Source: an uncultured Peptococcaceae bacterium (GTDB lineage Bacteria > Bacillota > Dehalobacteriia > UBA4068 > UBA4997). From it: DNA of 48,134 nucleotides. Positions 8,215-28,106 of the stretch are shown piece after piece. The DNA is taken from assembly GCA_947647555.1 (NCBI GenBank), contig CANSKT010000005.1, positions 1-48,134 of the forward strand. The letters are read 5' to 3'. Numbering within the stretch: the first letter of the stretch is position 1; each line of letters starts with the position of its first letter. The translations under genes were made by a program, and so were the position numbers. The notes beneath the pieces are model-generated. The model saw only the letters and a program-made list of their open reading frames with translations. It had not been told where the DNA came from and searched no databases.

Positions 8215-8310
8215 ATGATTTGGATAAGCATTGCCGCCCTGATTATGCAGGCTATTCAGCTTGCTGTTCAAGTGGCAGAGTTTTTGAAGAATAAAAGCGC
8301 ACAAAAATAG
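8215..8310 (+). CDS. Small hydrophobic peptide, candidate type I toxin
   Basis: A 31-residue peptide starting MIWISIAALIMQAIQ. Residues 2-24 form one hydrophobic helix with Gln in the middle, and the tail is basic (KNKSAQK). This is the usual form of Fst/TxpA/holin-like type I toxins, whose helices insert in the membrane. The ATG lies 6 bp after AAGGGGGT. That site can pair with CCCCCT at 8175-8180, which would hide it, as in other type I toxin mRNAs. The stop TAG is inside the terminator stem. An antisense RNA converges on the gene from the right. Identity to a named family cannot be confirmed by eye. Confidence 0.7.
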   Translation: MIWISIAALIMQAIQLAVQVAEFLKNKSAQK

Positions 8311-12678: not shown

Positions 12679-12804
12679 TATTAACTTCCTCCGTTTATAA
12701 AAATTTTTTCTAACTGTTTGTTAGTATGCAGCTTTTTGGAGAAAGTATAATATGAATTTTTTGCCATTTATATGCGAATTATAGTTGAAAATATAATGAA
12801 ATAG

Positions 12805-12834
12805 AAAACCCTCAGTTCGCAGCTGAGGGTTTTT
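12805..12834. terminator. Terminator after the nucleoside kinase-like gene
   Basis: AAAACCCTCAG (12805-12815) pairs perfectly with CTGAGGGTTTT (12823-12833). It can end transcripts from the minus-strand kinase gene; the plus strand also runs into T's. Confidence 0.75.
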
Positions 12835-12922
12835 GTTTTGGTGTTTTTTACTTAGAATAAAAATGTTTACCGTTTATATATTCTGCTAATATTATATTAT
12901 TAAAAAATATTATTGTCAATGT

Positions 12923-17167: not shown

Positions 17168-17210
17168 CAATTTTTTAAATCTTGACAATTTTTTTTAATC
17201 TTGACAACCA
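17161..17210 (+). repeat. Three short direct repeats of CTTGACAATTTTTTAA type
   Basis: The units TTTTTTAAGTCTTAACAA, TTTTTTAAATCTTGACAA and TTTTTTTTAATCTTGACAA follow one another at about 19-20 bp spacing and lead into the longer repeats. Confidence 0.7.
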
Positions 17211-17572
17211 AGAGCCAAAGAGTGCATTGTGTAAATTGGTAATATAAAGTGAACTGTTTTTAATTTGTACGTGCATTTGCCAAGGATTTAAAAGATATTG
17301 ACAACCAAGAGTAAGATAGTGCAAAATGTTTTAAACTTTGTAGGCTAGTAATATAGAATTAAATATTTTTAATTTGTAAGCACATTTGCCAAGGATTTAA
17401 AAGATATTGACAATCAAGAGCCAAAGAGTGCATTGTGTAAGCTGGTAATATAAAGTGAAATGTTTTTTATTTGTAAGCGCGTTTGCCAAGGATTTAAAAA
17501 ATGTAAGCTGGTAATATAAAGTGAAATATTTTTAATTTGTATGCGCATTTGCCAAAGATTTAAAAAATGTAT
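17201..17572 (+). repeat. AT-rich tandem repeat block upstream of livJ
   Basis: Three long units begin with TTGACAA at 17201, 17298 and 17407 (97 and 109 bp apart). A partial fourth unit of about 65 bp starts near 17501 and lacks the TTGACAA part. Conserved blocks in each unit are TTGACAA.CAAGAG, GTAATATAAAGTGAA, TTTTTAATTTGTA, GCATTTGCCAAGGATTTAAAA and, in units 1-2, GATATTGACAA joining to the next. No gene is visible. The region is about 400 bp of noncoding DNA between the DUF554 gene and the livJ promoter. Confidence 0.85.
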
Positions 17573-25857: not shown

Positions 25858-26955
25858 ATGAAGCTGGGAATTGTCGGGTTGCCGAATGTGGGCAAAAGCA
25901 CCCTGTTTAATGCCATTACTAATGCTGGTGCGGAGTCTGCTAACTACCCTTTTTGTACGATAGAGCCGAATGTAGGCATGGTGGCTGTGCCCGATGAACG
26001 CTTGCAGGTTCTGACAGAGCTGCATAAATCGGCCAAAACGGTGCCGGCCTTTATTGAGTTTGTGGATATCGCCGGTTTGGTGCGTGGCGCCAGCCGCGGC
26101 GAGGGACTTGGTAATAAGTTTTTATCGCATATTCGTGAGGTTGATGCGATTGTGCATGTGGTTCGTTGTTTTGATAGTGAAACCATTGTGCATGTGGAGG
26201 GCAGCGTCGATCCATTGCGTGATATGGAAACTATTAATTTGGAATTAATACTGGCGGATTTGGAAACGGTGGAAAAACGCTGGGAAAAGGCTTCTCGTCT
26301 GGTGCTGAAAGGCGATAAATCCGCGGCGGCTGAAGCGACTTTGCTGGGCGAGTTGAAAAAGCTGCTGGAAGATGGCCGGTCGGCCAGAGCCTATGAGTTT
26401 TCTGCTGATGAGCGCGAGTTGCTGCGTGATATCAGCCTGCTGACGCTGAAGCCGGTGGTCTATGCGGCCAATATGGACGAAGCGGCTTTTGCCAATTATG
26501 AAACGGCCAATCCTTATTATCAGCAGCTGGCGGAGGCGGCAGCCAAAGAGGGCGCGGCGGTTTTGCCGATTTGTGCGGAGTTGGAGCAGGAAATTGCCGA
26601 ACTACCGCCGGAGGAGCAGGAAATTTTTCTGGCGGAAATCGGCCTGACAGAAAGCGGTTTGAGCCGTTTAATCCGCGTCAGCTATGACCTTTTGGGGCTG
26701 ATTAGCTTTTTGACAACCGGCGCCGACGAAACCAGGGCTTGGACGATAACGCGTGGCACTAAAGCGCCGCAGGCAGCCGGCAAAATCCATTCTGATTTTG
26801 AACGCGGCTTTATCCGAGCGGAAACGGTGGCCTATAAGGATTTAATGGCCTGCGGTTCCATGGCGAAGGCTCGGGAAAACGGTCTGCTGCGCAGTGAGGG
26901 CAAGGAATATGTGGTGCAGGACGGCGACATTATTCTGTTCCGCTTTAATGTTTGA
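25858..26955 (+). CDS. ychF: Redox-regulated ATPase YchF
   Basis: An Obg-family P-loop protein that binds ATP in preference to GTP and associates with ribosomes. The 365 residues begin [15 protein letters not shown] (G1 motif), then [27 protein letters not shown] (G3) and NMDE in the position of the specificity motif, typical of ATP-binding YchF. A TGS domain closes the protein ([21 protein letters not shown], described by its ends). The gap from AAGGAG to the ATG is unusually long at 14 bp. A new promoter lies 8 bp after the stop. Confidence 0.96.
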
Positions 26956-26963
26956 GAAAATAC

Positions 26964-26992
26964 TTGCAATATCTTAAACATTATATTATAAT
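26964..26992 (+). promoter_or_regulatory. Promoter of the candidate small RNA after ychF
   Basis: TTGCAA (26964-26969), a 17-bp spacer and a perfect TATAAT (26987-26992). The -35 region overlaps TTGCAATATCTTAAA, a variant of the repeat core found upstream of ndk. Confidence 0.75.
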
Positions 26993-26999
26993 ATATGAA

Positions 27000-27078
27000 G
27001 AACTAGGAGAGATTACCTGCGCAAAAATCGGGTAAATAGAAAAGGAACTGCCAAATAAAATGGCAGTTCCTTTTTTTG
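27000..27078 (+). ncRNA. Candidate two-hairpin small RNA
   Basis: A strong promoter is followed 80 bp later by a strong intrinsic terminator with no reading frame between. The predicted RNA has a 5' hairpin (TTACCTG pairing with CGGGTAA, one G-U) and then the 12-bp terminator stem. AGGAGAG is exposed near the 5' end but is not followed by a usable start codon. Confidence 0.55.
27043..27078 (+). terminator. Terminator of the candidate small RNA
   Basis: AAGGAACTGCCA (27043-27054) pairs with TGGCAGTTCCTT (27062-27073), followed by TTTTT. The opposing tsaC gene ends 12 bp further on. Confidence 0.9.
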
Positions 27079-27089
27079 TTTGTGAATTA

Positions 27090-28106
27090 TCATTGTCCTG
27101 CGGCGGCCTTGTTCAGCCGGTTCATGATGGCGATGCCTAGACCCTGCTCTGGGAAACGCTCGGCCAGCACCAAATCCGCCTGAATTTCATCTGTCCAGCG
27201 CAGGGCGGCGAACAGGTTTTGCGCCACCTGCGCCAAATTTTCACCCAGCAGAAAACAATGCTCTGCCCCGGCCAGACCGGTTAAGCCGTTCATGCTGGCC
27301 AGCACGGCAATGCGCGGCTCGTTTTTGCCCTCGTTCAGCAGTTGCTGATAATATTGCTGATAGGTGGTGAAAATATGTTCCGTCGGGCAAAGCAGTACTT
27401 TGGCTCTGGGCGCATAATGGCGGTATTTCATGCCGGGCGCTTTGGCAATACCACCGTTCACCAGACGCGTTTGTTCCGTCAGACCGGGTAATAAATCTGC
27501 AAGGTCGGCGGCGGTAATCACACCTGGCCGCAGAATGGCCGGCACCGGTGAGGCCAAATCCAGCACAGTGGATTCCAGCCCGGCCAGACATTCGCCGCCG
27601 TTGATGATAAGCGGAATTTTGCCCTGCAAATCATGCCAGACATGTTCCGCTTCGGTGGGGCTGGGACGGCCGCTCAAATTGGCGCTGGGGGCGGCCACCG
27701 CTATTCGCGAGTCCTGCAAAAGCTGCAAAGCGGCCGGGTGCGCCGGCATGCGCAGGCCGACTGTGGCAAGCCCCCCGGTGGTTTCCGGCGGCAGCAAACC
27801 GGGTCGCGCCGGCAGCACCAGCGTCAACGGCCCCGGCCAGAAATCACGCATTATCTGACGCGCCAGCGGCGTAACCTCGGCCAGTTCCTCGGCCTGTTGG
27901 GTCTGGCCGATATGCACAATCAGCGGATTGTCTGACGGCCGCCCCTTAACCTGATATATCTGGCGTACGGCGTTGGCGTTCAGCGCGTCGGCGCCCAGAC
28001 CGTAAACAGTTTCTGTGGGAAAAGCCACCAGCTGGCCGTCTGCCAGCAGCTGTGCGGCGTTGCCCAAATTATAATCCGGAAAATAATCTATAATTCTGGT
28101 TTCCAT
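27090..28106 (-). CDS. ywlC: L-threonylcarbamoyladenylate synthase (Sua5/YwlC type)
   Basis: Makes threonylcarbamoyl-AMP from Thr, bicarbonate and ATP for the t6A modification at position 37 of ANN-decoding tRNAs. The 338-residue protein has the YrdC domain (about 1-200), with PTETVYGLGADA, KGRPSDNPLIVHI, and SANLSGRPSPTEAEHV. A Sua5 C-terminal domain (about 215-330) follows a linker containing PGMKYRHYAP. Length matches the two-domain form. It is last in a minus-strand run from prfA/prmC, 24 bp after the flavodoxin gene. Confidence 0.95.
   Translation of the reverse strand: METRIIDYFPDYNLGNAAQLLADGQLVAFPTETVYGLGADALNANAVRQIYQVKGRPSDNPLIVHIGQTQQAEELAEVTPLARQIMRDFWPGPLTLVLPARPGLLPPETTGGLATVGLRMPAHPAALQLLQDSRIAVAAPSANLSGRPSPTEAEHVWHDLQGKIPLIINGGECLAGLESTVLDLASPVPAILRPGVITAADLADLLPGLTEQTRLVNGGIAKAPGMKYRHYAPRAKVLLCPTEHIFTTYQQYYQQLLNEGKNEPRIAVLASMNGLTGLAGAEHCFLLGENLAQVAQNLFAALRWTDEIQADLVLAERFPEQGLGIAIMNRLNKAAAGQ

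Follow-up and report, generated by a model that had tools for sequence, protein, structure and literature searches.

A promoter-like site ahead of the probable shared terminator of convergent ychF and sua5 genes: a possible gene-start remnant resembling a small RNA gene

Small RNAs (sRNAs) of the type I class derived from 3' untranslated regions (3'UTRs), such as MicL, DapZ, MicX and RsmW, as well as ArgX in Lactococcus lactis, have a promoter right after a coding sequence and give a short transcript ending at a terminator common with the messenger RNA (mRNA), according to the part of PMC7821165 drawn upon here. A similar arrangement lies between ychF and sua5 in the DNA analysed here, a stretch of 48,134 nucleotides (the window; contig CANSKT010000005.1, positions 1 to 48,134, assembly GCA_947647555.1) from an uncultured Peptococcaceae bacterium. 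By this arrangement, the RNA predicted at the locus would belong to the type I 3'UTR sRNAs; however, the members named in the same part of PMC7821165 were characterised as RNAs, whereas the ychF/sua5 element is known from sequence, in two sister species. The locus also resembles the two-sided terminators between convergent genes, in which, in the portion of PMC7566282 considered here, an A tract precedes the hairpin and a T tract follows it. It differs from them in that one of the genes is separated from the terminator by a promoter-like site.

With a probability of roughly 0.45, we tentatively regard the element as an orphan gene-start signal, perhaps what remains of a gene since lost, from which a short lineage-specific RNA would extend to the shared terminator. 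An orphan promoter and a ribosome-binding motif would thus lie between the convergent genes. If the promoter works, RNA polymerase should start near 26998-27000, and transcription would stop about 78 bases on, at the hairpin that is probably the common end of ychF (plus strand) and sua5 (minus strand), giving a short RNA without a usable start codon. Most likely, either the ancestor of the two sister species lost a small gene here or the promoter arose recently; in relatives, the site is occupied by other genes. We consider it more likely that the RNA is a by-product than that it has been selected as a regulator. We infer transcription, gene loss and lack of function from a locus at which a promoter-like site, an AGGAG without a start codon, a two-sided terminator, a narrow distribution and an ordinary substitution rate are observed. 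The features are as follows.

26964..26992, plus strand: promoter-like site TTGCAA-17-TATAAT (hexamers 26964-26969 and 26987-26992), 10 of 12 consensus matches
27005..27009, plus strand: Shine-Dalgarno-like sequence motif AGGAG, with no ATG, GTG or TTG 3-12 bases downstream
26998..27076, plus strand: predicted short RNA, its start placed from the -10 position and its end at the terminator, from the letters of the DNA only
27013..27035, plus strand: weak 5' hairpin TTACCTG (27013-27019)/CGGGTAA (27029-27035), 9-base loop, -5.6 kcal/mol
27038..27076, both strands: two-sided intrinsic terminator hairpin, probably common to ychF (plus) and sua5 (minus), 16 pairs, loop of 7, T tail
25858..26955, plus strand: ychF, GTPase with a YchF-GTPase_C domain (Pfam PF06071 and PF01926)
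27090..28106, minus strand: sua5, threonylcarbamoyl-AMP synthase, convergent to ychF (Pfam PF01300 and PF03481)

The AGGAG motif, having no start codon behind it, sets this locus apart from the comparable promoter matches sampled in the genome. The control sample covered 326 kb of the 2.17 Mb genome (stretches C1-C4 and the window), in which genes were defined by how long their reading frames are rather than by a gene finder. It contained 86 intergenic promoter matches with a score of at least 10, 15 of which had a Shine-Dalgarno motif (AGGAG, GGAGG or AAGGAG) within 30 bases. A start codon followed 3-12 bases after the motif in 14 of these 15, and the ychF/sua5 site was the sole exception. 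An AGGAG without a start codon suggests either a gene start minus its gene or a promoter and an AGGAG that formed by chance. The preliminary description of the locus had proposed that the motif could mimic a ribosome site; its spacing is indeed that of an ordinary gene start, yet ATG, GTG and TTG are missing, so that a lost or decayed gene start becomes a serious rival explanation. The statement that the RNA lacks a reading frame was borne out, as no ATG, GTG or TTG frame of at least 25 residues is confined to it. The 5' part resembles the start of a gene on contig C38 (TTGCAA, ATAATATATGAAG, TAGGAG, ATG), with a genome-wide expectation value (E) of 0.48, and we do not claim a common origin.

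The promoter-like site was found just after ychF as described previously, 8 bases separating the ychF stop codon from the -35 hexamer, in an intergenic stretch of 29% GC. Among 2000 shuffles of this stretch, 6.2% yielded a promoter score of at least 10 of 12, and 0.65% an exact TATAAT with the 17-base spacer. In the control sample, matches of at least 10 occurred in 10 of 60 convergent strand tests, compared with 1.9 expected from shuffles. This excess implies that at least some of the matches in convergent stretches are real. The upstream sides of genes had such matches in 30 of 70 divergent cases and, for tandem genes in the sense direction, in 24 of 101. Units leading from a promoter to a terminator without a long frame numbered four: the ychF/sua5 one, a transfer RNA (tRNA) gene, a unit on C2 resembling a toxin-antitoxin module, and one at 12685-12922 of the window. 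The arrangement is therefore uncommon, not unique, in the sampled genome.

Two side observations concern other places in the window. The unit at 12685-12922 (minus strand), in a convergent intergenic stretch, carries TTGACA-17-TATAAT, which at 12 of 12 is a better match than that of the ychF/sua5 site, with a terminator within 60 bases; about 105 bases of it, including the terminator, are absent from the closely related genome G001. At 17168-17413, repeated units containing TTGACAA lie between convergent genes, and their length in the present genome is not the same as in G001.

The preliminary description treated the terminator as dedicated to the small RNA, and this does not hold. Only a single terminator-like hairpin was detected between ychF and sua5, and on the plus strand there is thus one such hairpin for ychF and the predicted RNA to end at, as in type I 3'UTR sRNAs, where the terminator is common with the mRNA. 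Its stability is -22.8 kcal/mol (none of 2000 shuffles was as stable), and its stem comprises 16 pairs by computation instead of the 12 previously given. Both strands have U tails, that of the minus strand coming from an A tract at 27040-27044. Terminators were present in 26 of the 60 convergent strand tests. In the sister genomes G006 and G007, sua5 likewise ends at two-sided hairpins, unrelated in sequence and without the promoter seen here. Since sua5 ends at a terminator there too, the promoter appears to be a local addition. The hairpin is most simply taken as the predicted shared end of two convergent genes.

The fold of 26990-27090 (-28.4 kcal/mol, z -4.82) owes its stability mostly to this terminator. 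The 5' hairpin exists as reported earlier, and its stem is identical in G001, yet its stability is not above chance, being equalled in 405 of 2000 shuffles and in 779 of 1463 window stretches of similar GC. The lack of a conserved 5' hairpin had been named as an outcome that would speak against the sRNA, and our results come close to it: stability is at chance level and the hairpin was seen in two sister species only. With the 5' structure at chance, no changes within the stems and two near-identical sequences, the data do not describe a structured conserved sRNA family. A short RNA of about 78 nucleotides is plausible from the predicted signals; the assertion that little other explanation is left fails, given a terminator between convergent genes.

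Distribution of the element is narrow. A DNA search of 61 genomes, the present one included, found it in one of the 60 relatives, G001, with 94% identity over 127 bases. Searches of the family and of the order gave 2 of 10 and 2 of 35 genomes, respectively, both counts including the present genome. The genes themselves are widespread: 34 of 36 genomes had a ychF gene, all 9 genus and family members had sua5, and ychF flanks in the proper orientation were seen for 16 of 30 loci. In G007, a short gene pair, brnT/brnA-like by eye, lies between ychF and sua5, and in G006 an integrase gene, likewise named by eye, directly follows ychF (L162 2482-3648). ychF was not within about 1.5 kb downstream of sua5 in G002-G006, G008 and G009, the G009 locus being partly N. 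A separate observation concerns ychF identity across the order (36 genomes), which falls into two ranges, 71-74% in some families and 44-50% in another; this split may mean two ychF lineages or transfer.

The covariance search suggested earlier was carried out with a model built from the two near-identical copies, which could miss distant relatives. Full scores were obtained only in the present genome and in G001 (111.4 and 110.8 bits), with at most 40.7 bits elsewhere in the 61 genomes. Hits at E up to 0.1 occurred in 29 of the 61. Five of the weaker hits listed were inspected, and they depend mainly on the terminator, which the best alignments fit far more closely than they do the 5' hairpin; a score of 33.5 bits is reached by the bare terminator read from the opposite strand. 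As the present genome and G001 were the only ones at full score, whether DNA was searched (in relatives, the family and the order) or the covariance model was used, a conserved sRNA was rejected. No Rfam family matched the region at its gathering score. Among the 25 sub-threshold matches (E up to 10), ncr1015 (RF02449; 29.8 bits, cut-off 60) and rli40 (RF01472; 24.1 bits, cut-off 100) resemble the element in their terminator-like 3' hairpin. No further copy above chance-like scores was found in the present genome. The search for plasmid and phage copies gave only short matches (E 0.1-0.4), one of them, from Enterococcus, inside a reading frame, and an exact scan of viral contigs for the 5' hairpin gave 0 matches. 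An attachment site or integrase remnant was considered and rejected; the 3' end of the G006 integrase gene resembles the 5' hairpin by eye (GCAAAAA, then TCGGGTA), which is a probable coincidence. Among the literature matches listed for an RNA between ychF and Sua5, none concerned, in the portions consulted, an RNA at this place.

Special conservation of the stretch is not supported by the comparison with G001. We counted 7 substitutions in 129 aligned intergenic bases, in addition to insertions and deletions, which affect the T tract and the vicinity of the ychF stop codon. Among 41 fully aligned intergenic stretches (two partly aligned ones were excluded), this rate, 0.054, is ordinary, 12 being higher and 28 lower. 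Several observations nevertheless weigh against a mere gene-start remnant. The hexamers and stems are free of substitutions, all 7 of which lie in the spacer, 5' leader, loops or 3' edge, a pattern that fits an RNA under selection, with counts too small to decide. In five genes nearby, fourfold sites also differ more often (86 of 636) than the bases of this stretch (7/129), although this contrast is weakened by the many other intergenic stretches that are as low as or lower than 7/129. Moreover, we detected no remains of a coding sequence, just 28 bases lie between AGGAG and the terminator stem, and it is the missing start codon, and this only, that would point to gene loss.

A functional type I 3'UTR sRNA, with its own promoter past the ychF frame, the ychF terminator and base pairing in trans through 27000-27040, is the likeliest of the rival explanations, and we regard it as rather unlikely. 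It gains from the rarity of promoter-to-terminator units without a long frame, four in the sample of which one is a tRNA gene, and from the identity of stems and hexamers in G001, but it has to account for a 5' hairpin at chance level, confinement to two near-identical species and an ordinary substitution rate. Nor did the recommended target prediction yield a convincing target. In a duplex scan against 309 gene starts, the best predicted duplex (-32.0 kcal/mol) was equalled by 5 of 100 shuffled queries. Its site, a 14-base exact complement, covers the last codons of a deacetylase-like gene preceding a nucleotidyltransferase/HepT-like pair (names read from the translations). G001 retains 13 of the 14 bases as coding sequence, and the pair is not at that place, so the context is not kept; we did not count this site as a target. 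A locus without transcription, in which AT-rich DNA matches a promoter by chance and the hairpin simply serves to end both ychF and sua5, seems unlikely to us. The 6.2% of shuffles reaching 10 of 12 speak for it, as does the common sharing of terminators by convergent genes reported in the cited part of PMC7566282. On the other hand, TATAAT with the exact spacer occurs in only 0.65% of the shuffles, promoter matches in the sampled convergent stretches exceed expectation, and both hexamers are retained in G001.

Less probable again is a young lineage-specific sRNA acting in trans that began as the 5' end of a gene since lost, whose leftover promoter and ribosome-binding site took over the ychF/sua5 terminator; as a part of this same reading, AGGAG would bind the anti-Shine-Dalgarno end of 16S ribosomal RNA or pyrimidine-rich mRNA. 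A tiny protein is very improbable. A non-standard start, CTG at 27017, lies 7 bases past AGGAG, which is a good spacing; the basic frame that it opens has 13 codons, and G001 encodes the same first 13 residues. In so short a sequence, however, one synonymous change cannot count as evidence. The stop codon of this frame (27056-27058) belongs to the loop of the terminator; G001 lacks it, and there the frame continues across the terminator. With no start codon at 3-12 bases and this stop lost, the locus does not look like a protein-coding mRNA. We consider the antitoxin RNA of a type I toxin-antitoxin pair the least probable possibility. Although candidate modules of such a kind exist elsewhere in the genome, the strand opposite the predicted RNA has no short hydrophobic frame with a promoter of its own; the sole small antisense frame, 27013-27093 (26 residues), overlaps the end of sua5, and differences in the T tract of G001 shift it, as judged by eye, out of frame.

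One such candidate lies in the window itself. A frame for a hydrophobic peptide of 31 residues at 8215-8307 (plus strand) follows a Shine-Dalgarno motif, and opposite it is a strong minus-strand promoter match, TTGACT-17-TATAAT, at 8419-8391, an arrangement resembling a type I toxin-antitoxin module. The peptide family has 7 places in the present genome, 1 in G001, 3 in G006 and 5 in G007, and none in 6 other family genomes. The copy on C1 has no Pfam match and lies within a 505-base stretch that is 98% identical in G001.

The elements noticed in the preliminary description are thus real, and they were over-read. If the locus encodes an sRNA, it would add one more lineage-restricted member to a known class. 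If the orphan gene-start signal that we prefer is the correct explanation, it would be a small example of how promoter and terminator leftovers may mimic an sRNA gene. Such an example advises caution in calling sRNAs from sequence only: a terminator between convergent genes should not be taken as dedicated to one.
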